NCBI RefSeq assembly: GCF_012932215.1 | Contig: NZ_CP048788.1 | Coordinates: 2,542,001 to 2,606,000 of the forward strand | Length of the DNA: 64,000 nt | Direction: 5' to 3' | Source: Roseobacter ponti | GTDB lineage: Bacteria > Pseudomonadota > Alphaproteobacteria > Rhodobacterales > Rhodobacteraceae | In this document: piece by piece, positions 4,507-41,447 of the stretch | How the letters are laid out: each line of letters starts with the position of its first letter | How positions within the stretch are numbered: the stretch's first letter is position 1 | Made by a program: the position numbers and the translations under genes | The notes under the pieces: generated by a model | Databases searched by the model: none | Told to the model about the DNA's origin: nothing | The model's input: only the letters and a program-made list of their open reading frames with translations

Positions 4507-4551
4507 AACATGTCCACCATCCACCCGAAGGTCAGGACCGGAGCATATAGT

Positions 4552-4800
4552 ATGGGTCTCAAAAAGCTTGCTGCGAAAGTCGACGATTATAATGCACGTC
4601 TCGAGAGCGGAAAGGCGCACAAAATAACGTCACACCATGTGCAGAAGGTGCTCGAAAAACTTCGCTCGAAATCGATCGCGCTTGAGGCTGAAATCTCGGA
4701 TGCGACCTCAGCGGACAGGAAAGCGCGGCTTGAAAGCAAGCTTCAGATCGCGCGTGCGCATATCGAACGGGCAGAATGGCTGCTTAAGGAACTGGCCTGA
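4552..4800 (+). CDS. Small helical protein of unknown function
   Basis: An 82-residue, highly charged protein starting MGLKKLAAK, with predicted long helices (KVLEKLRSKSIALEAEI and KLQIARAHIERAEWLLKEL) typical of a short coiled coil. I chose the ATG at 4552, which has a GGAG about 12 bases upstream. An earlier in-frame ATG at 4510, four bases after the Na/Pi-type gene stop, would add 14 residues but has no ribosome binding site. The tight spacing suggests co-transcription with the transporter. I do not recognise a named domain and propose no function. Confidence 0.7.
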   Translation: MGLKKLAAKVDDYNARLESGKAHKITSHHVQKVLEKLRSKSIALEAEISDATSADRKARLESKLQIARAHIERAEWLLKELA

Positions 4801-5001
4801 CCAAACGGGGTCGCGCGGGCGTCCGCCGCGAAGAATAACCGGGGCGTTTCGGAGTCACCGGGTTGCGCATGCAACAGAAGAACTTTCGCGGTCACGGACC
4901 AGTTTGTCGGTTCCTGCCCCGCCAGCAGCACCCGCGACTTAAGTATAGACAGAACCGGCCATGATCTGATTGCCTTGAAAGCAGCTGAGGGGCCATTGTT
5001 T

Positions 5002-8000
5002 TTGATTCGTAAACTCCGAAATTTAGCGATCGGACTGTGCTTCGCCACGGGTCTTGCCCTTCCGGAAATCACTTCTGCGCAAACCTGGCAGCCGCTGCTG
5101 CCGGAATTCGGAACGGGTGGAGGTGTGTGCACGGCAAACGGGGCGGAAACTGTGTGCTTATCATTTCAGTGCCATCCGCAGCGCGGTCTCGAATTTCAGA
5201 TTTTCCGGTCGTCTGTGCCGCGGAACGTACCCGCACAGGCCGCCGTTCAGATTGATACCGGCCCGGTGCGTATCATGAACTTTCGCGCCACTGACGGAGT
5301 TCAGGGGCTGGTTGCCAATCTCGATGTGGCTGGAAACGGCAGCGACATACTGCTGGATATGTCCAGCGGCAGAAGCATGGTTCTTCAGTCCGACCAGCGG
5401 TTCGTATTCCCGCTGACTGATGCCCGCGACCATATCTCGCGCGCGCTCGACCGCTGTCCGACGCACCGGTACGCGCGGCTGGAGAGTTTTTCTGATCTGG
5501 TGCGCACAGTGGAAGAGAAATCCGCACCCGACAAAGACACCACCCGTCTGGTTTATATGAACAGGACAGACAGTATCGGCCACGACCTGAGAACGGGTCG
5601 CACCGACGCAGGTCTGCGGGGCATCGTGGAAACAGACTGCATCGCGGCCTGTATTGCAGATCGCGACTGCGCACTGGCGGCGTATAATGAAAGCACGCGT
5701 ATCTGCTCGTTGAAATCCACCTTTGGTTCGCTGACAGAGAATACGAATGTTACAACGACTTATGTGCAGCACCGTCCGGCCATCCCTCCCGCGCCCCTGA
5801 TTCCGGGTCCGCCCGTGGTCCGGATTGAGCAGTTACGCGCGGTCGCGGGAGAGCCGGCGGGGGCTTACAAAAACCGGCTGCGCACCGCCTCCACAGGTCT
5901 CGGCGGGGATTGCCGTGCAGAAGCAGATGCCGCGCAACACGTAATCTCCGGGCTCAGGCTCGATGTGCCGGAAAGGCAGGCGCAGGCAGGTGGAAAAGTT
6001 GCTCTGAGCTGGGCTGTCGGTCTTATGTCAGAACGCGTGCCCCTCTGGCTCGTTGTGGCAGTCGACAGGCCGGCACGGTTTGCGGGTACAGGTTTTTTCG
6101 GTCTGAACGCCGGTGCCATGGGTCCTTTTGGCCTGCAGCAGGATGAAGAATTTCAGCGCGCATTCGTGCCGCTGTTTGAGGGTGAGCATGTTCAGAACGG
6201 AAAACTGGATCTGATCCCGCTTGAGGCCGGATCTTACACCATACGCATCACAGCACTCGCATATCTGCGCCGGTGTCAGCATGAACTGCCGCTCGGACAG
6301 TCAGAATTCCAGCTGACCGTGGCTCCAGCAGCGCCGGAAGTTGTGCTGCGTGATTTCACCGACGTCAATCCTTTTGACCGCAGAACAGATGTTCCCGAAT
6401 TCAACCGGCGCATCGACCTCAGTGATACCCGGTTTCAGATCCGGAACCTGTCGGACGGCAGTGAAGTCCTGTCGCGCGAGGGTAAAAACCTGGCTCTGTC
6501 GCCCACAAAGCGGTTCGTCGTCATTCATGACAATGCAAAATACGAGATCATCGATCTGGTCGATGGCGAGACGCTCGCGCAGGTCGACGGCGAGAGTCTG
6601 GCCTTCTGGAACGCAGACAGCTTCTTTATCAGCCAGGCCAGCAGCATGGGGGAGATCGGACTTGGCCAGACGATGCGGCCTTCGGTTTTTGTAAATCAGT
6701 ACCGGACCGGCCCGGCGTGTTGCGCCAATCGCGGGATGTCACATGTGTCAGTCAGCGTGGAAAACAGCCTGGTCCGCATCGCGGACCCGATCTGGAGTGA
6801 AAGTACGGCTGCCTGGTCCCTGCTTGACGGCACACGGATGGGCGCAGGGGACGTGGTCAGCTACGTTCCGGAGCGCAAACATCTGATATCAAAATCCTTC
6901 GGGCGGGATGTTCTGCGCACTGTTGGTATGGTCGCACCTCTGGATATCTCTGAAAAATGGGACATGCCTCTTGGCCCTCTGTTTGTGCACGGGCACGGCG
7001 TGACATATTCGAACGACGTCGAAGATGCGGAAGAGCGCGCGATCTTTGACATGGCACGGACCGGAGTTCAGACAGTCCCGATTGCGAAATCCGGGTTTGC
7101 CCCGTTTCAGACGGTGAGTGCCTCGACCATCCCCGCCGTGCTTCGGGGAATGTCTCCGGCTTCGACGGTGCGCCAGGCTGTCGGGTTTCAGTCTGCTCTG
7201 AGGCGCACCGGTCTTGACCTTGCTGATGCTCAACAGCCTGTCACCTGGCTGGATAAGCCGGTTCAGACGCCTTTGCGACCGGATACAGAGCCTGACCCGG
7301 AATTCGCAGCGACGATCAGCAAGGTGGAACAGGATCTCGCAAGGATTGGTCTGAAGGCGAACTGGGCGAAACACAATTTTGACAAAGGTGTGGCATCTTA
7401 CTGCGAACACCTCCCTTCGCCCGGCGATGTTACAACCCCGCTTCTGGCGGCCTATGAACTGGAACTTGCGCAGCGCTTTGATATCCTCGACCGGGTGATC
7501 TGGGTTCTTCGGGCACGGTGCGATGGTGGTGCCACGGCATCCTCTGTCAACCACCGGACAATCGTATCTGTTTTTGACAATCAGGCACCGGGGACTGCGC
7601 TTGGCAGCTATGCCGTTGAAGAAGGCGGCAGCTTCGGAGGTTCAAGAAAACCTTCAATCCTTGATGCAGGATACACCTCAAAAATCTTTGGAGAAAAGCT
7701 TCTGGTCTTCTTTGCCCCCGGAGAAGGGGCTCTTATGGTTTACGACCTGACGGGCCGGGAATTTCTGATGCAGCTGGACTATTCTGATCGCGGGGATCTG
7801 ATGTCAGACGTCTTCGTTGATGCAAGTCTGCAGCATCTTATTCAGCTTAATTCGGAAGGCAGCCTCGCGGTTTACCGGCTGGCGGACGGCGATCTGATAC
7901 TAAGGGGTCGGTATCTGGATGACGAACTGGTCTTCTGGACGGACGACTTTCAGTTTGATGCAACCGAAGAAGGGGCGGCCTTTGTCGAGCTTCGCTTTCC

Positions 8001-9123
8001 GGGCCGAGCCGGCCAGTTCAGTTTGCAGCAGTTTGATGACGCCCTGCGGGTGCCCGGGCTCTTACAGCGCGTGCTGGCAGGTGAGACCATTCCGCAGGCT
8101 GCGGCTTTCCCCGGGATACCACCGGAGATCACCGGTATCCTGAACGCAGATGACGGAAAAATCCACGGGATTGCCAATGTCATCACAAAAGGTTCTGCAG
8201 TTGCCGTCCGGCTCTTTCAGGATGGTGTGCTGACGGACAGTTTTGTTCCCGATGACGAGGGGCAGATTGTGATGTCATCTGTGCGCAAAAAAGGCGCACG
8301 CTGGGCTTCCCTTGTTGCTGAAGATCACAACGGGCTGGTCAGCCTGCCGGTAAATACTGATCTGGGGGCTGATCCGGGGGGGCTCGCGGATACCTTTTTT
8401 CTGGGGGTCGGTATCGATTACTACAAAGATGACCGGCTTGAGGATCTGAATTATGCCAAGGTGGATGCACTGCGCCTGTCAGACACTTTTTCGGCGCTCA
8501 GCGGCAGGACCATCAGTCTTGTTGAAAATGCGATCCTGACCGACCGGCGCGCGGGGCGCGAAGAGATACTCGCACAGATCAACCGTATAACGGGTTCGGC
8601 AAAGCCGGGAGACCACGTTGTGATGTTTTTTGCAGGCCACGGGCTCACAGATGATGACGGAGTATTTTATCTCGGTCTGTCCGGAACTGACCTGGATGAT
8701 CTGCCGGGAACCGCGTTGCGATGGTCTGAGATCGCAGAGCAGGTTGCTGATACAGGCGTCCGGATAACGGTGCTGCTGGATGCCTGTCATTCAGGTGCAG
8801 CCGCATCCGGTGCTTTTGCAACCAACGATTCCGCTGTCGAAGATCTTACAGGCTCTCTGTCGGGAACCGTTACCATTCTCGCGGCAGCCAAGGGCCGGCA
8901 GTTTTCCGGCGAGAGCCCGGATGCCGGCGGTGGTTACTTTACAGGTGCAATCAGCAAGGTTCTTGGCGACAAACGGGCCTTGTTCGACCAGAATGCAAAC
9001 GGCGTGCTCGAAGTCACCGAGCTTTATCGCGGCGTGAAGCATCTGGTTGTTGCACAACGGGGCCGGCATCAGACCCCATGGCTATCACGAAACAAACTGG
9101 TCGGAGAACATGGGCTCTTTTAA
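5002..9123 (+). CDS. Giant secreted caspase-family (peptidase C14) protein
   Basis: About 1373 residues. The TTG at 5002 is preferred because GAGGGG lies nine bases upstream and a clean signal peptide follows (basic RK, hydrophobic core, cleavage after TSA). An in-frame TTG at 4975 is the alternative. Residues about 187-256 contain a cysteine pattern (TDCIAACIADRDC, then ICSLKS) resembling a PAN/Apple module. The long middle, about 450-1130, is beta-rich and looks propeller-like (LALSPTKRFVVIHDN, FINQ-type strands). Residues 1131-1373 form a caspase/metacaspase domain with the catalytic pair H1213 (FFAGHG) and C1262 (LLDACHSG). Family knowledge gives cysteine protease activity; location outside the cytoplasm follows from the signal peptide. 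It overlaps the next gene by 14 bases, indicating translational coupling. Confidence 0.85.
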   Translation: MIRKLRNLAIGLCFATGLALPEITSAQTWQPLLPEFGTGGGVCTANGAETVCLSFQCHPQRGLEFQIFRSSVPRNVPAQAAVQIDTGPVRIMNFRATDGVQGLVANLDVAGNGSDILLDMSSGRSMVLQSDQRFVFPLTDARDHISRALDRCPTHRYARLESFSDLVRTVEEKSAPDKDTTRLVYMNRTDSIGHDLRTGRTDAGLRGIVETDCIAACIADRDCALAAYNESTRICSLKSTFGSLTENTNVTTTYVQHRPAIPPAPLIPGPPVVRIEQLRAVAGEPAGAYKNRLRTASTGLGGDCRAEADAAQHVISGLRLDVPERQAQAGGKVALSWAVGLMSERVPLWLVVAVDRPARFAGTGFFGLNAGAMGPFGLQQDEEFQRAFVPLFEGEHVQNGKLDLIPLEAGSYTIRITALAYLRRCQHELPLGQSEFQLTVAPAAPEVVLRDFTDVNPFDRRTDVPEFNRRIDLSDTRFQIRNLSDGSEVLSREGKNLALSPTKRFVVIHDNAKYEIIDLVDGETLAQVDGESLAFWNADSFFISQASSMGEIGLGQTMRPSVFVNQYRTGPACCANRGMSHVSVSVENSLVRIADPIWSESTAAWSLLDGTRMGAGDVVSYVPERKHLISKSFGRDVLRTVGMVAPLDISEKWDMPLGPLFVHGHGVTYSNDVEDAEERAIFDMARTGVQTVPIAKSGFAPFQTVSASTIPAVLRGMSPASTVRQAVGFQSALRRTGLDLADAQQPVTWLDKPVQTPLRPDTEPDPEFAATISKVEQDLARIGLKANWAKHNFDKGVASYCEHLPSPGDVTTPLLAAYELELAQRFDILDRVIWVLRARCDGGATASSVNHRTIVSVFDNQAPGTALGSYAVEEGGSFGGSRKPSILDAGYTSKIFGEKLLVFFAPGEGALMVYDLTGREFLMQLDYSDRGDLMSDVFVDASLQHLIQLNSEGSLAVYRLADGDLILRGRYLDDELVFWTDDFQFDATEEGAAFVELRFPGRAGQFSLQQFDDALRVPGLLQRVLAGETIPQAAAFPGIPPEITGILNADDGKIHGIANVITKGSAVAVRLFQDGVLTDSFVPDDEGQIVMSSVRKKGARWASLVAEDHNGLVSLPVNTDLGADPGGLADTFFLGVGIDYYKDDRLEDLNYAKVDALRLSDTFSALSGRTISLVENAILTDRRAGREEILAQINRITGSAKPGDHVVMFFAGHGLTDDDGVFYLGLSGTDLDDLPGTALRWSEIAEQVADTGVRITVLLDACHSGAAASGAFATNDSAVEDLTGSLSGTVTILAAAKGRQFSGESPDAGGGYFTGAISKVLGDKRALFDQNANGVLEVTELYRGVKHLVVAQRGRHQTPWLSRNKLVGEHGLF

Positions 9124-9508
9124 ACATTTCATACTCATAGCGGCCCTTGTACCCTGGCCTTCGACCGCCCTCGCCCAGTGCCGCGTCTGTGACGAAGTGA
9201 TTGAACTGAACTCGGATTACGCCCGGTGTTTTAATTCAGCTTTCGAGGAAATTCTGGCTGAGGCTGCAACCTCACCCAACGGGCGCGCCAGAGTGGACCT
9301 TGCCAGCTGCGATGACGGGACCGGCGAAAAAGACAGAGGCGGGCTGCTTGTTATGCCGTCCGTGCCGGGGCCGCAGAAAATATCCAAGTCGGTTTACCTG
9401 CTGGATGAAACATACATTATCTGCCTCAAAGAACTGCTGTCCCGGCATGCGGATGAGCTTGATCCCACGCGGACATTCGACCTCTACGAGGAATGCCGGG
9501 ATGGCTGA
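9110..9508 (+). CDS. Secreted six-cysteine protein in caspase operon
   Basis: A 132-residue protein beginning MGSFKHFILIAALV with a signal peptide ending ALA before QCRVC. The mature part has six cysteines (QC, VC, RC, SC, IC and EC contexts), which could make three disulfides in the periplasm. The ATG at 9110 lies inside the end of the caspase gene and has CGGAG just upstream; longer in-frame starts would run deep into that gene and lack a signal peptide at the N terminus. It overlaps the next gene by eight bases. No domain is recognised. Co-translation with a caspase-like protease suggests a partner, substrate or inhibitor, which is inference. Confidence 0.78.
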   Translation: MGSFKHFILIAALVPWPSTALAQCRVCDEVIELNSDYARCFNSAFEEILAEAATSPNGRARVDLASCDDGTGEKDRGGLLVMPSVPGPQKISKSVYLLDETYIICLKELLSRHADELDPTRTFDLYEECRDG

Positions 9509-10055
9509 AGACAGGGAATCCGGCATATCCTTGTGGTTGCGCCGGTTTCTGGGGACCGGCGCAGGCATCGCAACGGCGGCCGGGGTCGTTCTGGGGGTGT
9601 GGGAATACCGGCAGCGCGGCGACCTGACCCGGGCCCGTGAGACAATGGACATGATCACGGTATGGGAACAGCAGGGAGCACGTGATGCGTACCGGGCCCT
9701 TTCCCGCGATCTGGAGACTAAAATCGCCACTGAGCTTTCCGAGGCGGATGTTCTCGCTGCGGATCAGAGCAGGCGTGCGCAGCGCAACCTTTACGCCAAC
9801 ATATCCCGGTCCGTTCTGGCAACCGGTGATCAGAAACAGAACTTTGAGGACGTCGTCTATTTTTTCTCCAGACTAAGCCTGTGCATTGATGCGGGCCTTT
9901 GTGACGACAGAATTTCCAAAGTTTTCTTCGGAGACACATTTCACAGCTTCGTTTTAGTGTTCAGCACGCAGATTTCCGCAAGAGAACAGGTGATCGCGGG
10001 ATTTGACGATGCGCTCGTCAATCTGGAACGCACATTTGCGCGGATTGAAGAGTAA
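9501..10055 (+). CDS. Single-helix membrane protein in caspase operon
   Basis: A 184-residue protein from an ATG at 9501 that overlaps the preceding stop (ATGGCTGA arrangement). One membrane helix is predicted at about residues 14-34 (FLGTGAGIATAAGVVLGVW) after an RR pair, which suggests the N terminus is inside. What follows is hydrophilic and helical (RETMDMITVWEQQGARDAYR and later YFFSRLSLCIDAGLC), somewhat like DUF4760-type proteins, but that resemblance is weak. Topology alone does not settle whether the main domain is cytoplasmic or periplasmic. It is the last gene of the caspase operon. Confidence 0.75.
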   Translation: MAEDRESGISLWLRRFLGTGAGIATAAGVVLGVWEYRQRGDLTRARETMDMITVWEQQGARDAYRALSRDLETKIATELSEADVLAADQSRRAQRNLYANISRSVLATGDQKQNFEDVVYFFSRLSLCIDAGLCDDRISKVFFGDTFHSFVLVFSTQISAREQVIAGFDDALVNLERTFARIEE

Positions 10056-10190
10056 TAAGCCCTGAGCACCATCGAAAGCTGGCCGGATGCTGTACATCCA
10101 GCGTTCTGCTCCTGCCAGCGCAGTTAGCGCGGTGTACAGGTCGCGTAATCGCCTGACGGGTTTCGCCGGACGCCGGGGGTCAGCAGGCAC

Positions 10191-10207
10191 GGCACCGTGG
10201 TGGTGCC
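10191..10207 (+). terminator. Short GC hairpin in convergent intergenic region
   Basis: GGCACC and GGTGCC arms of six bases flank a five-base loop, followed by a modest T-rich run (CCCTTGTTATT). It lies between the end of the caspase operon and a minus-strand gene, where a terminator is expected. The stem is short, so this is tentative. Confidence 0.35.
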
Positions 10208-10317
10208 CTTGTTATTATGACAGGACAGAGGCGCGCAGATGCCCGTCGGGCAGACATGCTCATTCCGGGCTATGCTGCACCATATAGACAGATAACCCTA
10301 TCCCTGAAAGATCTGCA

Positions 10318-10806
10318 TCAGCGACAGCGACGGAATGAGATTGAGGCCAGCGTGTACTGTGCAGCAGCGTCAACATCAGCATCGGCGCCATTGCTCCAGA
10401 GTGTATCGACATCTTCAGCGACAGTTTCTGTGTACAGGTTTTCCGGATCAGAAACACCAGAACGATCGGCGGGGACGACCACAGTCATTTTTTTCTGATT
10501 CCCATCATCATCTTCGGCCACGGTGATTTTGAGGATTTTGGTGCCGTTATTCTCACAGTTTATATTATCGCTGTTTCCGACCTGTGCGACGCTGGTGATA
10601 ACAGTGTCAACCTGGTTTACCCTGACAAGGAGATCATGGTCGTTGCTCTGAACGCAGGTATTAAGTGCTGCAGCGACAGCTTCGGCTGTACCGGTAATAT
10701 TTTTGAGCTTATCTGAATATGTTTTTCCCAGAAAAACGAGCCCTGCCCGAAGCTTATCTCTCTCAGACAGGTTCTGATCTTTAGATTTACAGACAATTGA
10801 AGGCAT
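10318..10806 (-). CDS. Hypothetical protein downstream of heme peroxidase
   Basis: A 162-residue protein without a signal peptide or membrane helix. The start is placed at the second of two nearby ATGs (10806) because AAAGGAG sits seven bases before it; the first ATG at 10812 is too close to that site. The N-terminal half is helical (ERDKLRAGLVFLGKTYSDKL), and the middle has beta-like stretches (TKILKITVAEDDDG, KKMTVVVPAD). It lies about 25 bases after the heme peroxidase stop on the same strand, so they are likely one operon. No known domain was recognised. A substrate or accessory role for the peroxidase is only a guess. Confidence 0.65.
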   Translation of the reverse strand: MPSIVCKSKDQNLSERDKLRAGLVFLGKTYSDKLKNITGTAEAVAAALNTCVQSNDHDLLVRVNQVDTVITSVAQVGNSDNINCENNGTKILKITVAEDDDGNQKKMTVVVPADRSGVSDPENLYTETVAEDVDTLWSNGADADVDAAAQYTLASISFRRCR

Positions 10807-10830
10807 TTTCATTCTCCTTTGAACGTAAAA

Positions 10831-12486
10831 TTAGATTTTGGTCGCGTAATCAATAAGTTCAACCAGTCCGAACTCGTTACTACCGTTCTGCAGCTCCTTG
10901 ATCGGAGCATCGTCAGGTCCGGATGACGGCGTGTTCAGAATACCGTCCGGATCTTCAGCAATCGCAGCGTAGATGGTTTCAATTATAACACGTCCGGTCA
11001 CAGGTCCGAACAGGCTCCCGCACTTTTTCTGAGACACGGCAGATTCCCGGAGGCAATAAAACCATAACGGTGTGCTGTTTCTGAAGACCTGACCTGCTCC
11101 GTCGTTCAGGAACGCTTTCAGTTCCGGCGCGTGCACATCCGCAATCTGATCGCCTGTCAGAACATCCGGGAGGGCGCCTTTCAGTTTTACCTGCAGCGCC
11201 TGGTGAAAGCACTGTGCGTCCGGTAAATCGACCTGTGCGCCCCGCAGCAGTGTCTGCACGGCCAGGCTGAAGGTGGCCGCGTTGCCCGCCCTGGCCGGCG
11301 CACCAGGTCGCAGAACTTCATCGACGGCATCTGCGTTCAGTGCTGCAAGGCCCTCGGCAAGATGTTCACCCGCCCGATGTGCAAAATTAACCGGTGTATC
11401 CTTTATCCCCGGTCGGGGGATCATACTGCTCCAGTGAACCGCCCAGTCCTGCCTCAGACGGTGTTCGGTCGCGCCGCGGATCTGCACCGCCTCAAGCCGG
11501 CCGTTTCCGTTGCTATACACATGTTCCAGAAGGTCAGTGAGGCCAGCGGTCGTATCGCTCCAGTCACGATAGCGGTTACGCACCATGCTGTGTCCCACTC
11601 TGAAGCAGGCCATGGAAAACTCACGGGATACAAAGAACGGGTCGGTTGTCACACAGGCGGGCCCGTTAACCATCACGTCATCACAGGTGTCCGCATCAAT
11701 TACCCGTGGCAGGTAATCATACAGAACGACATGCTGGAGGTGACGCACGGTTGCGCGCCTTGCCGCCTGTTCGTTGCCCCCGTGGTACTGCTGCATCTTC
11801 CAGTAAAACCGGGTCAAAACCACCGCAAGCTGGGCAACTGCCAGATTATGATCATTTCGGGCATCTGCAATCTGCGCTTCGCCAGGAGGAGAGCGTGGCA
11901 GATCCCTCAGGTCGGCGTGCTCAGCACTTGTGTTTCCGAGCGCCAGACACCCGTGAGTTTCGGAGGTTCCGGCGAGGCCGTGCGTCTGCGCGTCCACTTG
12001 TCCGAACACACTGTCAAGATCCAGAACCGGCGTTCTGAGACTTAGGACCCCGCCGTTTTCAGCAACAGACAACCGCCCGAGGTCATGGGCAATGAACTGG
12101 CCGAGGTAGGTATAAGCCGCGGGTAAAGCTGAATCCTCTCGCGTCTGCGACGGGTTGCCGGCAGAAATGGCCTCGCCCAGTGCCGAAAGCAGTTCGGGGT
12201 CATGCTCTGCGTGTTTCACCCCTTCGAGGAATTCGTCATAAATCTGAGCGCGCGACAGGGCTTTAGTTATCGCACCGGCATCATCGCCTGCACGAAATGT
12301 GATGTCCCCGAGAAAAGTCCGGAGCGTTGCGCGATCCATGACGACTGCTTTTGCTGCAGGATCATATGTCAGGGTTGCAACTTCATCGGAGTTCCGGTCG
12401 GGAAATGTCACGGCGATTTCTTCCGCAGACCTTTCACTTTCCCTGGCTCGCAGGGCCCGCAGAGCGGATCCGTGTTTTCCTGGCAT
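10831..12486 (-). CDS. Animal-type heme peroxidase
   Basis: A 551-residue member of the animal heme peroxidase (cyclooxygenase-peroxidase) superfamily. The distal site is YLGQFIAHDLG, with H134, and the proximal heme ligand is H299 in FRVGHSMVRNRY, spaced as in bacterial peroxidockerin and peroxinectin-like proteins. The ATG at 12486 has AAGGAG at good spacing; an upstream start would add residues of poor character. No signal peptide is seen, so it is cytoplasmic or exported by a leaderless route. These enzymes use H2O2 to oxidise halides or organic substrates. The small gene behind it shares the same GGAG-then-two-ATG start layout. Confidence 0.87.
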   Translation of the reverse strand: MPGKHGSALRALRARESERSAEEIAVTFPDRNSDEVATLTYDPAAKAVVMDRATLRTFLGDITFRAGDDAGAITKALSRAQIYDEFLEGVKHAEHDPELLSALGEAISAGNPSQTREDSALPAAYTYLGQFIAHDLGRLSVAENGGVLSLRTPVLDLDSVFGQVDAQTHGLAGTSETHGCLALGNTSAEHADLRDLPRSPPGEAQIADARNDHNLAVAQLAVVLTRFYWKMQQYHGGNEQAARRATVRHLQHVVLYDYLPRVIDADTCDDVMVNGPACVTTDPFFVSREFSMACFRVGHSMVRNRYRDWSDTTAGLTDLLEHVYSNGNGRLEAVQIRGATEHRLRQDWAVHWSSMIPRPGIKDTPVNFAHRAGEHLAEGLAALNADAVDEVLRPGAPARAGNAATFSLAVQTLLRGAQVDLPDAQCFHQALQVKLKGALPDVLTGDQIADVHAPELKAFLNDGAGQVFRNSTPLWFYCLRESAVSQKKCGSLFGPVTGRVIIETIYAAIAEDPDGILNTPSSGPDDAPIKELQNGSNEFGLVELIDYATKI

Positions 12487-12642
12487 TGGCATTCTCCTTC
12501 CCGTCTTATGGGCGCGAAATTCCGTGCTGTTGCCGGCAAATCCGGGATACGCGGCGCAGTCTACCACATTTTGCAGCATTCCGGGCCCCAGCGCCCGGCT
12601 GCCGCCGGGGTTCAGGGATTTCAGCACCTTGCGTAAAGGTAA

Positions 12643-13530
12643 TCAGGGACGTTCGAGGATATAATCCGGCCGGATGCCCGAAGCGCTGACCGGTCCTTCA
12701 ATCTCATGACCGGCAAAAAAGCCATATCCGGCGATCAGGGCTGTTTTAATGCCGGCGGCCTGCCCGCCCAGAATGTCGGTGTGAAGACTGTCACCGACCA
12801 TCACGGTCCGGGCAGGGTCAAAGTGGCCCAGCCGTGCAAATGTCAGATCGAACACATTCCCGAAGGGTTTGCCAAAAAAGCGCGGCTCCACGCCGGTGGC
12901 ATCGGCAAGCTGATGCGCGAATTTGCCCGGCTCAACGGAAAATCCGACTTCGCGGGGCGCCACGATATCGGGATTGCCCACGATCACCGGGCGCGGGTTT
13001 CTCAGAAGAGAGGCCTCCAGCAACGCCTGCCGCTGCCCGGTCCAGACGGCGCTGCCCATCAGGATGAAGCCCTCTGCCACGTCATAAACGGACGGATCTT
13101 CGGCCAGATAGGTGATGTCGAGATGCTCAAGATCCTGACGGCCAAGGCTCTCAGTTGCCATGAGACCCCACCGCGTCGCGGGCATGTCTGCCAGCCCTGC
13201 GAGAGTGGCTTTGCGGCTTGTTATAACGTCGTCGGGATCAAAATCGTAACCGAGACGCCGGTACTTCCGCATCAGACCGGCATGCGGATTTCCGGCGGCA
13301 TTGGAGACGACAATCACGCGCTTGCCGGCCTTCTGCAGGCCTGCGACACGCTCCGGCACACCGGGTATTGCAGTGTCACCGATGTTCAGCACACCGAAGG
13401 CGTCAAGCAGGAAAACATCCGTGTCGCCGGCAATGGAATCCAGATCGGCCAGCCGCTGACAGGCCCCTTCCCGCGTGACATCCGGAAGGCGCGCGCGCAC
13501 CCGCTCGTAGGCGGCAAAGGCCTCTTCCAT
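12643..13530 (-). CDS. HAD-IIA (NagD-like) phosphatase in phn operon
   Basis: A 295-residue HAD-superfamily subclass IIA hydrolase. It has the nucleophile motif FLLDAFGVLN, a motif II region VIVVSNAAGNP, a GNPD loop and the C-terminal acidic motif VMVGDSLHTDILGG. HAD-IIA enzymes dephosphorylate small sugar or alcohol phosphates, including glycerol-3-phosphate-like compounds. The ATG at 13530 starts two bases after the second phnE stop, so it is in the same transcript as the transporter. A direct role in processing the imported phosphorus compound is inferred from that position. No phosphonate-cleaving enzyme (C-P lyase, phosphonatase) is present in the window. Confidence 0.85.
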   Translation of the reverse strand: MEEAFAAYERVRARLPDVTREGACQRLADLDSIAGDTDVFLLDAFGVLNIGDTAIPGVPERVAGLQKAGKRVIVVSNAAGNPHAGLMRKYRRLGYDFDPDDVITSRKATLAGLADMPATRWGLMATESLGRQDLEHLDITYLAEDPSVYDVAEGFILMGSAVWTGQRQALLEASLLRNPRPVIVGNPDIVAPREVGFSVEPGKFAHQLADATGVEPRFFGKPFGNVFDLTFARLGHFDPARTVMVGDSLHTDILGGQAAGIKTALIAGYGFFAGHEIEGPVSASGIRPDYILERP

Positions 13531-13532
13531 CT

Positions 13533-14348
13533 TCAAATGATCGCACCCCGGACCTTGGCAGAGACCCATTCCGAAATGACAACCGCCGCAAGGATCACCA
13601 ACAGGATCAGTGACACCTGCGGCCAGGCGAGGACATTGAGGGACGACGAAAGCTGCAACCCGATACCGCCCGCCCCCACAAGGCCCAGAACAGTGCTTTC
13701 GCGGATGTTGATATCCCAGCGGAAAACCGCGATGCCGGCAAAGGCAGGCAGGATCTGTGGCACGATGCCATAGGCCATGACCTGCCAGCGTGAGGCACCG
13801 GTCGCTGTGATCGCCTCAACCTGCGTTTCGTTGATCTCCTCGATCGCCTCATAGAGCAGCTTGGCGCAGAACCCGATTGAACGGATGGCGATCGCGATGA
13901 CCCCGGCAAAGACACCGGGGCCGATGATGGCGATCAGCAGCAGCGCCCAGATCAGCGAGTTGATGGACCGTGTGGATACGATGATCAGCAGGGCGATGGG
14001 CCGGATGATGAACCGCGACGGCGTGGTATTGCGCGCCGCCAGAAAGGCCACGGGCACTGCAAGGATCAGGGCAAAAATCGTGCCCAGCGTTGCGATGTTG
14101 AGCGTGTCCCAGATCGGTTTTCCGAGCTGGGTGATGTACTCCCAGCGGGGCGGCGTCGCGCGTGTCCAGATGTCATTAGCGATGCGCGGTGCGTCCCAGA
14201 CAAAAAACCACGTGGTCGCCGCGGAAATCTGCTGCCAGCAATATGCGAAGATCGCCACGCCGATCAGCCACATCACCCAGTGCGCGAGGCTTTCCCGACC
14301 GGAGCGCCTTTGCCAGAGCGGACGGCCTTTGATATCCTGAACCGGCAT
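13533..14348 (-). CDS. phnE: Phosphonate-type ABC permease, second copy
   Basis: A 271-residue integral membrane permease of the PhnE family with about five or six helices and the conserved cytoplasmic EAA-type loop (EEINETQVEAITATGAS). It begins in a TAATG overlap with the upstream phnE, so the two are translationally coupled. Pairs of different PhnE subunits are common in phnCDEE systems and presumably form a heterodimeric channel that docks on PhnC. The C-terminal motif [13 protein letters not shown] is typical of the family. Its substrate is set by PhnD. Confidence 0.93.
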   Translation of the reverse strand: MPVQDIKGRPLWQRRSGRESLAHWVMWLIGVAIFAYCWQQISAATTWFFVWDAPRIANDIWTRATPPRWEYITQLGKPIWDTLNIATLGTIFALILAVPVAFLAARNTTPSRFIIRPIALLIIVSTRSINSLIWALLLIAIIGPGVFAGVIAIAIRSIGFCAKLLYEAIEEINETQVEAITATGASRWQVMAYGIVPQILPAFAGIAVFRWDINIRESTVLGLVGAGGIGLQLSSSLNVLAWPQVSLILLVILAAVVISEWVSAKVRGAII

Positions 14349-15157
14349 TACTGCACCCTCTCGCGGATGATGCCCGACAGGTATTCAAGCGCCATGACGA
14401 TCAGAATAATCATTAGCAGGATCGCGGCCGCCGTATCGTATTCATAGCGGTCGAAAGCCGTGTTGAGCGTAGCACCAATGCCCCCTGCCCCCACGAGCCC
14501 CAGAATGGCGCTTTCGCGGAAATTGATGTCGAGGCGGTATATCGACAGACCAATCAGACGCGGCATGACCTGCGGCTGCACTCCATAGTTTATCCACTGC
14601 GTCCACCTGGCACCGGAAGCTTTGATCGCTTCGGCCTGGACGCGATCCATGCTCTCAATATCTTCGGCCAGCAGTTTCGACAAAAAGCCGATAGTGGCAA
14701 AGCTCAGCGTCAGAAAACCCGCAAGCGGGCCGAACCCGAAGATCGCCACGAGCAGAATGGCCACGATGATCTCCTGCAGGGCCCGGCTGACCGCGATGAT
14801 CGACCGGCAGATCAGATAGACGGGCAATGGCGCGATGTTGCGCGCGGCCCCGAGGGCGATCGGGATGGAGATGGCGATACCGACGACCGAGGAGGCAACC
14901 GTCATGATGATGCTCTCGATCATGCCTTCCCAGATATCGCCTGAGCGTGAGGTGAAATCAGGGCTCGTGAAGGCCAGCACAAACTGTTTGCCGCGCTCAA
15001 GCCCCTCATAGACCCGCGCCCAGTTAACTTCGATGGTCATGAAAGCCGCGATCAGATAGGCCACAAACCCGATCAGAAGCGCCCAGCGCAGCCAGGGGCG
15101 CTGCACAAAGGGTGGTTTTTTCCACGGCCTGCCGACGAGGGTCTGCAGCTCGCTCAT
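14348..15157 (-). CDS. phnE: Phosphonate-type ABC permease, first copy
   Basis: A 269-residue PhnE permease with the family loop ([20 protein letters not shown]) and the C-terminal signature [14 protein letters not shown]. The start overlaps the phnC stop by four bases (ATGA) and its own stop overlaps the next phnE start by one base. A long N-terminal segment with one early helix precedes the transport domain. It is expected to pair with the second PhnE in the inner membrane. Confidence 0.93.
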
Positions 15158-15942
15158 TCGGCGGCCTCACTCTCGTCATCAACCTTTTCAATCGTCGCTT
15201 CCCAGTCCTCTTCGCCGTAGATCGTGGTCAGAACATCGGGTGTCAGACCTTCGGGCAGACCATCAAACTCAACCGCACCAAGGCGCAGCCCGATGACGCG
15301 CTGCACGAACATCTGCGCGAGGGCCACGTCATGGATGTTAATGATAGCTGCAAGCCCGCGCTCTTTGCAGAGCTCACAGATCAGCCGCATGATCTGGCGC
15401 GAAGTCTTGGGATCCAGCGAGGCCGTAGGCTCGTCGACCAGCAGCAATGCCGGGTTCTGAATGAGCGCGCGGCAGATGCCGACCCTCTGGCGTTGCCCGC
15501 CGGAAAGCTCATCCGCGCGTTTGTCGGCCATATGCACCAGCCCCACCCGGTCGAGCAGGCGGAAGGCCTCATCCACGTCCGATTGCGGAAATCTGCGCAG
15601 GAAACTGCGCCAGAAACCAACATAACCAAGGCGACCGGAGAGCACATTCTCCATCACCGTCAGCCGTTCAACGAGTGCGTATTCCTGAAAGATCATCCCC
15701 ATCCGGCGGCGTTCGCGGCGCAGCGCACCCGATGACAGCCCCGTGAGTTCGACATCACCGAGGTACACCTTGCCGGATGTCGGCTCAACCAGCCGGTTGA
15801 TACAGCGAATAAGGGTGGATTTGCCGGCGCCGGATGGCCCGATCAGCGCCAGCACCTGGCCCTCGGGCACATCAAGATCAACGGCCTTCAGCGCCTGATC
15901 CCCGGTCTTGTAGGTCTTTACCAGCTTCTCAAGACGCAGCAT
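15154..15942 (-). CDS. phnC: Phosphonate-type ABC transporter ATPase
   Basis: A 262-residue ABC ATPase. Walker A is [14 protein letters not shown] near residues 34-47, the signature is [16 protein letters not shown], and Walker B is [13 protein letters not shown]. The full set of motifs suggests an active ATPase that powers uptake through the two PhnE subunits. It follows phnD after a stem-loop and overlaps phnE by four bases. The family assignment is clear from operon context; substrate could be phosphonate, phosphite or a phosphate ester. Confidence 0.94.
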
Positions 15943-36974: not shown

Positions 36975-38792
36975 TCAGAAATCACCCTCAAGAATAACGG
37001 CGTGACCGTGAATACCGGCGCCGTCAAACCACTGTGTGGCCTGCACAGAAGAGAGATCCGCGCGGCCCCGGCGCTCATACTGATACTGCGCGTAGTGTTT
37101 GTCGCCGCGCCCGTGCCGCTGGTCCGGCTTGCCGGGCAGCCAGTTTTCATATCGCAAAGGCTCGCCGCTGAACCAGCGCCAGCCGATCACCGCATTGTTC
37201 TCACCGCGATCTTTGCGCAGGCCGAAATAAGGGCCGGATTTATAGCTGGTGTTTGTGTTGCTGTCATAACCCATGCTGACAAAACCCGGATCAGAACTGA
37301 ACATACGCACCACGAACGCGTTTTCCGCCGCTGACGTGACAGAGGCGAGATCAAGACCGCATTTCTGAGCATCGGCGCGCGCCGATGCAACACTGCCGGA
37401 CCGTACGACAGCAACGTAAAGCCGGCCCTGGTAAACACCGTACACGCTTTTGCGCAGCCCCAGGCAGCCGAGAATATCAGTGATCTGCGGGTCCTCTCCG
37501 ATCATACGCAATGCGGCCGGGTTGTGACGGGTGGCAAAGGGGGCCGAGATAAAACTCCCTCCCGGGTCCTCTGCGAGTGCGATGTTCAGTGTCGCGAGCA
37601 GCGCCGGACCGGCGACACCGGTCTCCGGCAGGCCCGCGCCACTCTGAACCATGCGGATGCCCGCGCGTGTTTTCGGGCCGAAGACACCGTCCGGTGTCCC
37701 CACGTCTGCCCCCGCCTGGTTCAGTGCTGCCTGAAAATCGCGGCGCGCCTCTCTGTCAGGCAGCAGGAATTCTTCCATCACCTTATCATTTCCGGCAGCG
37801 ATCCATTTCGGGGTCATCCCGCGGATGTGCTCCAGCGCTGCCGGGTCGGAGAAAGCGCGCTCGTCGGTGGTGCGGGCATAGAGCGACCAGCCCCGCAGCG
37901 TGTTCACTTTCGCGGCCGCTTCTAAGGGGGTGGCCGGTGCCGCCTGCCCGGGCACCGGGGCACGGCTTACCGGGGCGGGTGCCGGCATCGCCACCTTTTC
38001 GACGGGCGGCACCAGAAAGATATCCTCGCCCGGCAAAGATCCGTAGGTAAAGGGCTCCTGAAACCCGTCCGTGGTCTGATAGACCCGGTCACGCACCTTG
38101 CGGAACAGTTTGCCAAGCTCCAGTCCGGGCTCATCAATATACTCCAGCAGTGCTGCGGCATAGGGACTGTTGCGCCCGTCGCCGTCCTGCGCCAGCGTGC
38201 CGCCACGCGCGGCGTATCCGACAACAACTCCCCCGGGCTCGATTGCCGCGAGACCATTCCCGATGGACCGCGTGGCCCCCGCGCGGCTCATCTGTGACAG
38301 AAAGGGATTGTTCCGGCAGGCATCGACGAGGATCAACTTCAGCCCCCCGGTATCCGCCACCGCATTCACCACAGAATCCAGTCGGATGGCTTCAAATTCT
38401 ACGTCTCTGTCGCTTTTCAGGGTGGCATTCACCGGGATCAGATAGTTGGTGTTTTCGATCTCAATCCCGTGGCCGGCAAAATAAATCAGCACCACATCGG
38501 CGCCCACAGCCGCCGCGGTGAAATCCCGCACCGCAAGCCGCATACCGGTGTAATCCAGATCAAGCCCGGAGGTGACCTCAAACCCGATGCCGGTCAGTTT
38601 GCGGGCAAGATCCGCCGCATCATTGGCAGGGTTGCTCAGCGTGGAAACGTGTTCATAATCCGCGTTTCCAATCACAAGGGCCACGCGTTTGCCATTGGCC
38701 GCAGACACAGGAGCGGCGCCAGTGCTGAAGATCACGATGAACGAAATCAGCGAGATAAATGCGCGTGCGGTCTGCGCTGCTCTGCGTTTCAT
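36975..38792 (-). CDS. Caspase / peptidoglycan-binding / C-type-lectin protein
   Basis: About 605 residues with a signal-like N terminus (AFISLISFIVIFSTGAAPVSA). The caspase domain (about 35-260) has the catalytic pair H108 (YFAGHG) and C159 (LVDACRNN). A peptidoglycan-binding-like repeat lies near 345-405 (LNQAGADVGTPDGVFGPKTR, cut short). The C-terminal 120 residues have C-type-lectin hallmarks: WRWFSGEPLRYENWLPG. The order protease, cell-wall anchor and carbohydrate-recognition suggests a periplasmic or surface-sensing protease; that is inference. It is the last gene after the cyclase and DUF928 genes, 31 bases behind the latter. Start at 38792 is favoured by AAAGGGG spacing; 38798 is possible. 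Confidence 0.85.
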   Translation of the reverse strand: MKRRAAQTARAFISLISFIVIFSTGAAPVSAANGKRVALVIGNADYEHVSTLSNPANDAADLARKLTGIGFEVTSGLDLDYTGMRLAVRDFTAAAVGADVVLIYFAGHGIEIENTNYLIPVNATLKSDRDVEFEAIRLDSVVNAVADTGGLKLILVDACRNNPFLSQMSRAGATRSIGNGLAAIEPGGVVVGYAARGGTLAQDGDGRNSPYAAALLEYIDEPGLELGKLFRKVRDRVYQTTDGFQEPFTYGSLPGEDIFLVPPVEKVAMPAPAPVSRAPVPGQAAPATPLEAAAKVNTLRGWSLYARTTDERAFSDPAALEHIRGMTPKWIAAGNDKVMEEFLLPDREARRDFQAALNQAGADVGTPDGVFGPKTRAGIRMVQSGAGLPETGVAGPALLATLNIALAEDPGGSFISAPFATRHNPAALRMIGEDPQITDILGCLGLRKSVYGVYQGRLYVAVVRSGSVASARADAQKCGLDLASVTSAAENAFVVRMFSSDPGFVSMGYDSNTNTSYKSGPYFGLRKDRGENNAVIGWRWFSGEPLRYENWLPGKPDQRHGRGDKHYAQYQYERRGRADLSSVQATQWFDGAGIHGHAVILEGDF

Positions 38793-38829
38793 CTGCATCC
38801 CCTTTCCGGCGCACAGGGCGCCCTTAAGA

Positions 38830-39522
38830 TCACTCTGCCCCGGGCAGTCCCGTTATGCCCGCCGAAGACACGAGCCCGGCAAAGCCGGGGCCCGGCTCAA
38901 TGCGCACCCTGCCTGAAAGCCCGATGCGCACGAATGCCCCGAGCGCGTCGAACCACAATCCGGCCGCGGCAAGGGCCGCAGGGTCATCGCCCGTCTGAAG
39001 CCCGCCGGGCTGCCGTTCCACATAGGTGCGCGCATCTGCGATCACGTCGCCGTCCGGTCCCGTCAGCAGCAGCACCTTCCATTCGTAAATCTTCCCGGGC
39101 TCCAGCGTCATCTGAGACCGGGCAAGGTCAAGGGCGTAGTATCCTTTGCGCAGGGGGCCCTCGCTCATGCGGGCCACACCGGTTCCGGTACCCTCCACCG
39201 GAACGATCTGCGCCTGCACTGAGCCTTTGAAGTTCTCGCTCAGATACCAGACCAGTGCTGGCTGCGCAGAGCGGGTAAGTCCGCCACCCTCGGGGGCCAG
39301 CAACACCAGCGCACCGTGGTCCCGGGCAAGATCGCGCGTGCCTGCGCCCACCCGGTCGGCAGGGGCTCCGGCGTCCGGGGGCACAAAGACCACCTCGCCT
39401 GGTGCGGCGTCTGTACTCCCGGTCGCCTGCTCACCGCGCGCCGCTGATGCACATAGAACGGCCAGGGACAGCAGGGCCGCGACCCCCCGGGACATCATAG
39501 CGTATTGCCGGTTCTGTCCCAT
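38830..39522 (-). CDS. DUF928-type exported protein
   Basis: A 230-residue protein with a signal sequence (GVAALLSLAVLCASAARG). The mature part has the DUF928 pattern: RVGAGTRD, ALVLLAPEGGGLTRSAQPALVWYLSE and a WKVLLLTG strand. DUF928 is a beta-rich domain that in many bacteria is found beside CHASE2 proteins and caspase- or CHAT-type proteases, as here. Its start codon overlaps the cyclase stop (TGATG) behind a GGAGG, so it is translationally coupled. Its function is unknown; a periplasmic partner between cyclase and protease is a reasonable guess. Confidence 0.82.
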   Translation of the reverse strand: MGQNRQYAMMSRGVAALLSLAVLCASAARGEQATGSTDAAPGEVVFVPPDAGAPADRVGAGTRDLARDHGALVLLAPEGGGLTRSAQPALVWYLSENFKGSVQAQIVPVEGTGTGVARMSEGPLRKGYYALDLARSQMTLEPGKIYEWKVLLLTGPDGDVIADARTYVERQPGGLQTGDDPAALAAAGLWFDALGAFVRIGLSGRVRIEPGPGFAGLVSSAGITGLPGAE

Positions 39523-41447
39523 CAGATGTGATCCTCCGGCATTCCGCCCGGTGCGGAAGGCCTGCCCGTCAGTTCATAGATCTCAAACGCGCTCTGCCCG
39601 TCATCATGCGCCATCCGCCCCGCCGGTCGGAGGCTCTCCCGCGACGGTAAGAGCTGTGCAGTGGTATCGCTTAAACATATGACAACAGGGCTTTGCTGTC
39701 GATCTCCCAGCGTTTTGCCGAAAGCTTCGATGCGCGCGGCGATGTTCACGGTGTCTCCCATCACATTGTACTGCAGGCTGCCGGTTGTCCCGAGAGTCCC
39801 GCTCAGAACCTCGCCGCTGTGCAGACCGATCCGCACCCGGTACGGTGCGAGCAGGCCGGGGTCAGCGTTAAAACGTTCCACCGCGCGGACAATTTCCGAG
39901 GCGGCCTGACAGGCGCGCGAGGCATCGCGTGATCTGGCACCGGGCGCCTCCGAGGGCACCGGCGCGCCAAAGACCACAAGGATCCCGTCGCCGGTGAATT
40001 TTTCAACAAATCCGCCCTGCGCGCGGGAAATCCGGCTCATCTCATCCAGAAGCGTGCTGGCCCATGTCATGAAAGCTTCGGGCTCTGCGGTACCGCCCAC
40101 GGTTGTGGAACCGGCCAGATCGGCAAACAGGATGGTGGTGTAAAGCCGCATGGGTACAGGTTTGCCGCCCGACAGCAGGACATCGCGGCTCTGCCAGATC
40201 TGAGCCGAAAGCTCAGGCGACATATGATCGGAAAACAGCGTGGCGATGGTGCGCCGCTGCTGGCGCGCCAGCACGCTGATGATGGTAAAGACGACGAGAA
40301 AGCCTGCAAACCAGGCAAAGGCGACCGGCACCGCGGGCAGCCAGAGGCCGCGTGCGAGCGCCACCGAGGCGGCTGCGCCGAAAGCCAGCGCCAGACCGGG
40401 GCCAAAGAAAATACCGCCCGCGAGCGACCTCGCGAAATACCCCGCACCCGCCCCGGCCAGTGCCGCGGCAAGGATCATCACAAGATGCACGGGGGCCGGC
40501 GGTGAGCGCAGGGGGCGAAGTCTGCCCGCCGAGATGTCGATCAGTTGCTGGACCACGGCGGCATGCACCGCGACACCATAGGAAAAAGGCGGGTGCGGAG
40601 GTCGGTTCAGCGGGGTGCGGAAATTATCCTTGATTGAGATGCTGGTCAGCCCGAGCACAACGACACGGCCTCCAATCTCCGCGGTGCCGGCGCGCCCTTC
40701 CAGCAGGTCTGCGGCGGAAATCACCTGTGCCACGGGCGGGCCGTTCCGCCAGGCAACCGCGATCTGATATCCGGTGTCATCGATCCCGCGGTAGCTGCCG
40801 GAGCCGTCACGCAGGCGCGGCACCGGTGTGTCGCCGAAAAGAAGCACCGAAGGATCGTCAGGAAGGGGTTTCAAACCTGCCTGCCCGGTTGCCAGAAACG
40901 CCAGTCGCGCCGCAAAGGAAAGCGAAACGCCGGTGCCGTCACTGGTCAGCAGCAGCGCGCGGCGCACAACACCGTCAGGATCGACCGGCACATCGGCAAA
41001 TCCCGTGCTGTCTGTGCTCTCGGCAAAGGCCGGACCGCGGATCGCATTGGCGCCCGACGCGCCCAGCATCGTTATCCAGACAGATCTGCTGTCGTCAAAG
41101 GCCCGCGTCAGCGCCGCGCTGCCAGGTGCCACAGGGTTGTCGCGATAGATATCCACGCCGATGGCTGTGGCCCCGGCCTCCTTCAACGCTTCAAGAAGCT
41201 CTGCCAGTTTTTCGTCGGGCAAAGGCCAGCCCCAGCGGGCCAGATCCTCTTCGCCGATTGCGACAATGACCACATCCCCGGCGGGTGCGTTATCGGCCAG
41301 GCGCGCAACCGTCCGGTCATACTGCACCAGTTCGATCCGCTGCAACGCCCCCGCCGCGCGCAACCCGGCGATAACCGCAAAGACGGCACAACCCGCCGCG
41401 AGGATCAGCAGGGCGGCGTGAAGCGGGCTCAGGATGTGTTTGTTCAT
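39522..41447 (-). CDS. CHASE2-domain class III nucleotide cyclase
   Basis: About 641 residues. A short N-terminal helix (LHAALLILAAGCAVFAVI) leads to an extracytoplasmic CHASE2 sensor (about 35-320), then three membrane helices (about 320-400) and a cytoplasmic class III cyclase domain (about 430-600). Metal-binding aspartates D443 (ILFADLAGST) and D487 (EKFTGDGIL) are both present. The lysine in EKFTGD and aspartate in MGDTVNIAARIE are the adenine-specifying type, so cAMP is the likely product. It starts the operon that continues with DUF928 and the caspase-lectin gene. The ATG at 41447 is used; a TTG at 41468 is possible. Confidence 0.9.
   Translation of the reverse strand: MNKHILSPLHAALLILAAGCAVFAVIAGLRAAGALQRIELVQYDRTVARLADNAPAGDVVIVAIGEEDLARWGWPLPDEKLAELLEALKEAGATAIGVDIYRDNPVAPGSAALTRAFDDSRSVWITMLGASGANAIRGPAFAESTDSTGFADVPVDPDGVVRRALLLTSDGTGVSLSFAARLAFLATGQAGLKPLPDDPSVLLFGDTPVPRLRDGSGSYRGIDDTGYQIAVAWRNGPPVAQVISAADLLEGRAGTAEIGGRVVVLGLTSISIKDNFRTPLNRPPHPPFSYGVAVHAAVVQQLIDISAGRLRPLRSPPAPVHLVMILAAALAGAGAGYFARSLAGGIFFGPGLALAFGAAASVALARGLWLPAVPVAFAWFAGFLVVFTIISVLARQQRRTIATLFSDHMSPELSAQIWQSRDVLLSGGKPVPMRLYTTILFADLAGSTTVGGTAEPEAFMTWASTLLDEMSRISRAQGGFVEKFTGDGILVVFGAPVPSEAPGARSRDASRACQAASEIVRAVERFNADPGLLAPYRVRIGLHSGEVLSGTLGTTGSLQYNVMGDTVNIAARIEAFGKTLGDRQQSPVVICLSDTTAQLLPSRESLRPAGRMAHDDGQSAFEIYELTGRPSAPGGMPEDHI

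Follow-up and report, generated by a model that had tools for sequence, protein, structure and literature searches.

A rare lectin-caspase variant of the putative CHASE2–DUF928 envelope sensor in Roseobacter ponti

The stretch of Roseobacter ponti DNA analysed here (the window: 64,000 nt, assembly GCF_012932215.1, contig NZ_CP048788.1, positions 2,542,001–2,606,000 of the forward strand) carries on its minus strand, at 41447–36975, a three-gene set encoding a CHASE2-class III cyclase, a DUF928 protein and a C14 caspase. Judging from its domains and relatives, this operon is a rare lectin-caspase variant of a CHASE2–DUF928 envelope sensor with swappable outputs. We favour, at close to an even chance, the reading that it forms an envelope-facing cAMP receptor unit in which the signal would run from the outside in. 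Pfam lists DUF928 as a domain of unknown function, and its recurrent pairing with CHASE2, in loci that combine a caspase-clan protease with exchangeable outputs (cyclase, kinase, CHAT), gives it a testable role. The operon likewise offers a testable role other than cell death for exported bacterial caspases. Its parts (nucleotide positions in the window; residue numbers in the proteins) are listed below.

39522–41447, minus strand: CHASE2-class III adenylate cyclase gene, 641 aa (ATG at 41447, stop at 39524–39522)
39522–39524, minus strand: overlap of cyclase stop and DUF928 start, TGATG, 1 base common to both
38830–39522, minus strand: DUF928 gene, 230 aa (ATG at 39522, stop ending at 38830)
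38799–38829, minus strand: intergenic gap between DUF928 and caspase, 31 bases
36975–38798, minus strand: caspase gene, 607 aa (ATG at 38798)
Cyclase protein, minus strand: TM 11–29, CHASE2 22–333, TM 318–336, 342–360 and 375–393, cyclase 438–579 (TM helices by hydropathy only)
DUF928 protein, minus strand, all predicted: signal-peptide-like N-terminus; Ig/FN3-like β-sandwich about 67–175, then helices
Caspase protein, minus strand: signal-peptide-like N-terminus; Peptidase_C14 37–253 (H110, C161); PG_binding_1 349–404; C-type-lectin-like tail about 450–607

The three-gene operon and its tight coupling had been described in the original prediction, and its coordinates are exact, as are the one-base overlap and the 31-base gap. 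The domain calls also held, with CHASE2, cyclase, DUF928, C14 and PG_binding_1 identified by Pfam and the lectin tail by a family profile. Base composition gives no sign of recent acquisition (G+C 0.61–0.66 in the operon and 0.59–0.65 in the flanks). A divergent MarR gene at 41644 is thought unlikely to regulate the operon because it adjoins FAD-enzyme, metallo-beta-lactamase-fold and fumarylacetoacetase genes.

CHASE2 receptors are widespread in bacteria, and partners are known for few of them. The cyclase (CHASE2, 162.4 bits; Guanylate_cyc, 56.9 bits) has the receptor architecture of a CHASE2 class III enzyme, in which an N-terminal TM helix, CHASE2, C-terminal TM helices and the cyclase domain follow one another (Pfam; hydropathy). 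Residues D443, K483, D487, D565, N568 and R572, which we take to be its metal-binding and adenine/transition-state residues, are all intact, as had been claimed. The same genome encodes 13 cNMP-binding matches and two further CHASE2 cyclases (L023 and L024), neither of which has a caspase or DUF928 gene within about 8–10 kb.

The DUF928 protein passes the Pfam cut-off (32.3 bits against 26). Its model has a best Z of 7.4 in structural comparison, which is a weak fold match, and its profile finds no significant match in the PDB, the top hits (E 0.026) being Ig domains of T-cell receptors. A search for plasmid relatives of this protein found none. Both DUF928 and the caspase begin with signal-peptide-like hydrophobic segments, by hydropathy only, in this operon and in two related ones described below.

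The caspase (Peptidase_C14, 125.3 bits; PG_binding_1, 50.9 bits) has a p20 fold with its His-Cys dyad present; H110 and C161, presumably the catalytic residues, are intact. The structure model of this protein (mean pLDDT 44.3) is too low in confidence to use. The window tail alone falls below the Pfam cut-off (E 0.057), but its assignment as a C-type lectin is firm at the level of the family: a profile built from 13 homologous tails hits C-type lectins of solved structure (E 1.6e-21), all 13 match Lectin_C at E ≤ 0.1, and the tail of a same-genome paralogue is narrowly above the curated cut-off (22.9 against 22.6). At the positions of EPN/QPD and WND, which we take to be the calcium-sugar motifs of C-type lectins, the window tail reads KPD (557–559) and WFD (590–592), while paralogue L025 retains EPN. 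The glycan ligand proposed originally is not supported, because these canonical motifs are degenerate. A search for the lectin tail across the class matched 8 of 385 genomes; 6 of these 8 belong to other families and gave weak matches. Two family genomes (G043, L068; G141, L069) fuse such a tail through a single TM helix (by hydropathy) to a class III cyclase. Lectin-tailed caspases recall published cyanobacterial targets of diversity-generating retroelements; this identity was rejected here because the genome has no RVT_1 reverse transcriptase match.

The idea of a sensor core comes from 20 DUF928 loci, a count that leaves out a weak below-cut-off match in genome G611 (its locus shows no module match). 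CHASE2 is present in 17 of them, on the same strand in 14. The outputs at these 17 loci are a cyclase (9), a Ser/Thr kinase (1), an HATPase just under its cut-off (1), CHASE2-fused CHAT (2), none found (3) and one that is cut; at L019, CHASE2 and the cyclase were called from local profiles. CHASE2 thus recurs with DUF928 whatever the output, which argues that DUF928 is tied to the CHASE2 head and not to the output. A caspase-clan protease, mostly CHAT, occurs in 15/20 loci, and together the two counts suggest a core CHASE2–DUF928 envelope sensor with swappable outputs. CHAT accounts for 12 loci, all other than the C14 operons, and the canonical His motif is missing in three of ten separate CHAT domains. 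In the remaining five (L019, L020, L021, L022 and L056) no caspase-clan protease was found within the locus sequence examined; L019, L021 and L022 belong to one genus, in which DUF928 and CHASE2 lie end to end on opposite strands. Members of the set had been said to occur together in cyanobacteria and other bacteria, and CHASE2 and DUF928 do co-occur in cyanobacteria, but the protease is CHAT rather than C14. The window has C14 and no CHAT match.

In the outside-in reading, the CHASE2 cyclase is predicted to span the inner membrane. DUF928, probably exported and Ig-like, would contact the CHASE2 head, with which gene linkage pairs it. The exported caspase would be held at the wall through PG_binding_1, its C-type-lectin-like tail serving as the putative recognition part. 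When it encounters damage, or a ligand in the envelope or at the surface, the caspase-lectin would cleave or bind either DUF928 or the head of CHASE2. The cyclase in the cytosol would respond by altering cAMP, to be read by at least one of the cNMP-binding proteins of the genome. More specifically, and in our estimate rather unlikely, the wall-anchored, lectin-tipped caspase may be a ligand-gated switch, such that binding outside leads it to cut DUF928 or CHASE2 and thereby sets cytosolic cAMP. If true, it would amount to second-messenger signalling gated by proteolysis, and the lectin-TM-cyclase fusions would be its one-piece counterpart. We counted against the outside-in reading the close caspase of genome G055, which has no DUF928 (see below), the lectin caspases outside the operon (8/11), the DUF928 loci lacking a caspase-clan protease (5/20), the opposite strands in L019, L021 and L022, the CHAT domains without the His motif (3/10), the solitary cyclases L023 and L024, and the weak DUF928 fold match.

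The reverse direction, which we consider doubtful, has CHASE2 sensing a wall or surface cue, cAMP rising, and the co-transcribed exported caspase remodelling the envelope or cutting surface proteins by way of transcription or co-regulation. The tight gene coupling and the intact His-Cys dyad fit it. Two-partner-secretion genes in 9/20 DUF928 loci suggest control of a surface product (the window has no ShlB/FHA match, with profiles from one and two sequences), and cyclase L023 adjoins a FecR/Ig/VWA/RTX exoprotein and type I secretion-like ORFs, the latter read by eye. However, its topology makes CHASE2 an input domain, lectins are also fused straight to cyclases, and cytosolic cAMP has no direct route to an exported protease. 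The original prediction, cAMP raised inside and proteolysis released outside, is not supported on this last point: both partner proteins of the cyclase start with export-type segments, and transcription was the one route seen from cAMP to an exported protease. Outside-in signalling is preferred because of the export-type partners, the cyclase-lectin fusions and published CHASE2-cyclase signalling.

Whether the caspase belongs to the sensor at all was judged among 198 genomes of the family. DUF928 was found by protein search in three, and all three genes are present in each, in the order CHASE2–DUF928–caspase in two operons and DUF928–caspase–CHASE2 in the third (L017); divergence is comparable for cyclase (54/43%), DUF928 (49/41%) and caspase (61/45%). 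The combination is therefore unusual, as predicted: lectin-tailed caspases are rare, and the set occurs in 3/198 genomes. It is unlikely, in our view, that a CHASE2–DUF928 sensor and an independent lectin-caspase are merely co-transcribed. Caspases are common in the family (C14 in at least 97 of 198 genomes), and of 11 lectin caspases sampled from the family, 8 lie outside the operon, in 4 genomes. G055 encodes a caspase (L063) close to that of the window (C14 79% and lectin tail 64% identical) and has no DUF928 by protein search or Pfam model; the closest CHASE2 cyclase in that genome is divergent and sits on the opposite strand at a distance of about 3 kb, separated from the caspase by an IS-like ORF. 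This argues against tight coupling of caspase to sensor and qualifies the co-conservation, which holds in the three DUF928-bearing genomes. Against mere co-transcription, the set is kept in shuffled order in L017, CHAT fills the protease slot in 12 other DUF928 loci, and CHASE2-C14 adjacency is beyond chance. With pairs chosen by eye among the matches listed, and with relatedness ignored, CHASE2 and C14 are no more than 3 kb apart in 5 places, where chance would give 0.185; leaving out this window, there are 4 where 0.171 would be expected. The 3-kb limit was set after the distances were seen. Widening it to 15 kb again gives 5 places, with 0.92 expected (Poisson P 0.003).

The suggested defence role is not supported. 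An anti-phage or programmed-death system, with infection signalled by the cyclase and killing done by the caspase, is improbable. In PADLOC, the cyclase domain is hit by Pycsar cyclase models (4.1e-18 for the best) and the caspase by a caspase model (4.3e-05), and caspases and CHAT occur in conflict systems according to excerpts of PMC10907252 and PMC9612521. These are generic domain matches only (PycC and caspase models), however; neither neighbour of the cyclase in the operon is recognised by a model for a Pycsar effector (PycTM/PycTIR), and export-type start and wall-binding domain of the caspase speak against this reading. Eight other window proteins that were scanned gave only a caspase model on the protein at 4801–9120 and one weak match on a FAD enzyme; none is in a recognisable defence system, and the neighbours scanned are mostly metabolic. 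A defence island thus has no support among the 11 window proteins scanned.

Several known systems resemble parts of the proposed outside-in receptor. MtxA of magnetotactic bacteria, in the excerpted text of PMC4439547, has a signal peptide and an Ig-like domain, and its gene adjoins that of a CHASE2 cyclase. The C-terminal domain of MtxA (4z29) ranks among the top structural matches to the DUF928 model, with Z 7.3 over 132 residues (Z below 8 may reflect a common arrangement only), and MtxA has no sequence match to DUF928 in the profile search. Prokaryotic caspase homologues (metacaspases/orthocaspases) share the C14 fold and His-Cys dyad with the window caspase. Passages of PMC3501461 and PMC2853523 describe a Trichodesmium protein in which caspase and CHASE2 are fused, and also caspases that carry peptidoglycan-binding domains. 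Unlike these homologues, the window has separate proteins, an export-type caspase start, a C-type lectin tail and a cyclase output. Cyanobacterial and proteobacterial CHASE2–DUF928–CHAT loci, some with two-partner secretion, place CHASE2 near DUF928 and a caspase-clan protease as the window does, but with CHAT where the window has C14 with peptidoglycan-binding and lectin parts. The functional precedent comes from S. meliloti, where, in extracts of PMC13001267 and PMC7529298, the outer-membrane protein NsrA signals through the CHASE2 cyclases CyaK/CyaD to Clr. CyaD1, CyaD2 and CyaK likewise join CHASE2 to a cyclase and convert an outside cue into cAMP (PMC13001267, in part); the outer partner is NsrA there, and DUF928 with the caspase-lectin would be its predicted counterpart here.

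The CHASE2 cyclase, DUF928 and caspase genes on the minus strand of the window form an operon that is real, conserved and rare:

39522..41447, minus strand, CHASE2–class III cyclase
38830..39522, minus strand, DUF928 protein
36975..38798, minus strand, caspase (C14, PG_binding_1 and C-type-lectin tail)

All three genes lie where the original prediction placed them, and the first two share one base (TGATG), with a 31-base gap before the third. Pfam finds a class III cyclase domain alongside CHASE2 in the first product, DUF928 in the second, and Peptidase_C14 and PG_binding_1 in the third. The active-site residues of the cyclase, as predicted, and of the caspase are intact, given the roles usually ascribed to them. 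By hydropathy, the cyclase protein has one transmembrane helix ahead of CHASE2 and three behind it, and the N-termini of the DUF928 protein and caspase resemble signal peptides in 3/3 operons (hydropathy only).

DUF928 was found in 3/198 family genomes with the window protein as query: the window genome and two relatives, G043 and G193. The proposed co-conservation holds in that all three genes occur in each of these genomes, but the caspase also occurs without DUF928 in another relative, G055. The caspase by itself is not tied to the three-gene set, because G055 carries a close copy (tail 64% and C14 79% identical to the window copy) and its genome has no DUF928 match; some 3 kb from this copy, the opposite strand bears a divergent CHASE2 cyclase, with an IS-like ORF between the two. 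Gene order in G043 is that of the window, and in G193 it is DUF928–caspase–CHASE2 cyclase. For the caspases of G043 and G193 and for the G193 cyclase, Pfam confirmed the domains save Lectin_C, which was below cut-off or absent. CHASE2 is present in 44 and C14 in 97 of the 198 family genomes. Among the matches listed, with pairs chosen by eye and statistics that ignore kinship, five CHASE2 places lie within 15 kb of C14 versus 0.92 expected (P 0.003; window left out, 4 versus 0.86, P 0.011), and five lie at ≤3 kb, a limit picked after the distances were seen, versus 0.185 expected (window left out, 4 versus 0.171).

Beyond the family, the Pfam DUF928 model matched 6/385 class and 6/398 phylum genomes, the window genome being counted in both. 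With a protein from genome G204 as query, 8/72,556 plasmid records carry DUF928, every one cyanobacterial; the window protein matched none of the 72,556. The resulting 20 loci (3 family, 5 class, 4 phylum and 8 plasmid) leave out a sub-threshold match in genome G611, and three class loci (L019, L021, L022) come from the same genus. Neighbours were identified with small profiles made from these loci, with Pfam on some, and from plasmid record annotation. CHASE2 occurs in 17/20 loci and shares the DUF928 strand in 14; in L019, L021 and L022 the two genes run end to end on opposite strands. The loci without CHASE2 are L051 and L052, where a nearby contig end truncates the module, and L054, which is not cut. 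DUF928 goes with the CHASE2 head rather than with its output, since the outputs vary: cyclase in nine, CHAT in two, Ser/Thr kinase in one (L049), HATPase in one (L061; 26.3 bits, slightly below the cut-off of 26.4), none found in three and cut in one. A strict motif search found the full set of three cyclase motifs in 5/9 cyclases, including that of the window.

The protease slot of these loci is usually filled by CHAT, and in the window by C14 with a lectin. Caspase-clan proteases, a clan that includes CHAT, occur in 15/20 loci (CHAT 12, C14-lectin 3). On two cyanobacterial plasmids CHAT and CHASE2 adjoin DUF928 as one protein:

L055, 6503-8833, CHAT fused to CHASE2
L059, 6082-8538, CHAT fused to CHASE2

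L058, L060 and L061 have their CHAT gene on the opposite strand. All 10 separate CHAT domains keep the Cys motif, and some may be inactive because 3/10 (L018, L050, L054) have no canonical His motif. Each of the three gene types is present in six loci from proteobacteria (window, L016, L017, L018, L049, L050), where the strand is common to them and the gene order varies. Two-partner-secretion genes (ShlB or FHA) occur in 9/20 loci. In L049 (164-2503), a CHASE2–Ser/Thr protein kinase stands beside DUF928, CHAT, ShlB and a TPS-domain protein.

The C-type-lectin assignment of the caspase tail is weak for the window copy alone (Pfam E 0.057; mannose receptor in the PDB, E 1.5e-4) and firm for the family: 13/13 tails match Lectin_C at E≤0.1, and their profile matches solved C-type lectins at 1.6e-21. 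Sugar binding by the window copy is doubtful, because the positions of the EPN and WND motifs, which mark calcium and sugar binding, read KPD and WFD while the tail of a paralogue in the same genome retains EPN. This paralogue (L025, 9958-12135) has C14, PG_binding_1 and a Lectin_C match barely above the Pfam cut-off; no cyclase match lies within about 8-10 kb. The tail was rejected as a diversity-generating target, since the window's genome gave no match to a reverse transcriptase.

The 198 family genomes hold 16 lectin-tail matches, spread over 8 genomes: 11 on C14 caspases, of which 3 lie inside the operon and 8 outside, two on class III cyclases and three on neither. In these cyclases (L068, 8184-9380; L069, 9587-10756), a single transmembrane helix connects the cyclase to the same tail. 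A tree of 15 C14 domains divides the 11 lectin caspases into two supported groups (7 rows, 98/98; 4 rows, 100/99) and did not recover the operon caspases as one supported clade.

Further caspases and CHASE2 cyclases were seen elsewhere. A second caspase of the window is encoded by a 1440-residue open frame (4801-9120, plus strand), or 1382 residues when counted from its first start; the C14 domain (54 bits) lies at the C-terminus, and PAN_1 matches below threshold. In L062 (9567-15207) and L063 of G055 (3819-15853), six C14 caspase genes, three lectin-tailed, occupy about 25 kb, and IS-like ORFs as well as a CHASE2 cyclase lie among them. L073 (6099-13709) has a CHASE2 cyclase between two C14 caspase genes, one with Sel1/TPR repeats and neither with a lectin-tail match. 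At L023 of the window's genome (4908-16461), a further CHASE2 cyclase adjoins a FecR/Ig/VWA/RTX exoprotein and ORFs resembling type I secretion genes.

The AlphaFold2 model of DUF928, made from three sequences, is of moderate reliability (mean pLDDT 67.5; blocks in residues 71 to 200 at 72-89) and predicts an Ig/FN3-like fold. VIA-align ranks a porphyran-binding module first (Z 7.4), followed by 4z29, the C-terminal domain of MtxA (Z 7.3, 132 residues), and, equally, a dextranase (Z 7.3); with Z under 8, these matches may reflect a common arrangement. The DUF928 profile search did not match MtxA.

The original prediction had a cue outside raise cAMP inside and release proteolysis in the envelope, perhaps in defence; the window proteins scanned do not support a defence role.

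In an open-access library, a scope outside which most subscription papers fall, CHASE2 and DUF928 were found together in only one paper, where a single cluster of the cyanobacterium NOSP7 (an abbreviation) is described and taken to act in signalling (PMC5587647). CHASE2 with 'CHAT domain', and CHASE2 with caspase and adenylate cyclase, were not found there, nor, by title, was the three-gene set. Caspases with CHASE2 or peptidoglycan-binding domains (PMC2853523, PMC3501461) and cyanobacterial caspase/C-type-lectin proteins (PMC7517822) are already described in earlier papers. In magnetotactic bacteria, the gene of MtxA, a protein with a signal peptide and an Ig-like domain, adjoins that of a CHASE2 cyclase (PMC4439547), and this makes MtxA a lead for DUF928. 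In S. meliloti, sensing of uL2, a ribosomal protein of the plant, via outer-membrane NsrA leads CHASE2 cyclases to raise cAMP, to which the CRP-family regulator Clr responds (PMC13001267, PMC7529298). By this analogy, and given the export-type starts of the DUF928 protein and caspase, outside-in signalling is the simplest reading. The sequence shows the domains, export-type starts, linkage and intact sites that such a route needs, along with 13 cNMP-binding matches in the genome; contact, cleavage, a ligand, a cAMP change and a receptor would be its further, inferred steps. The operon is a variant of an envelope sensor module in which the protease part is unusual and may act as a proteolytic gate.
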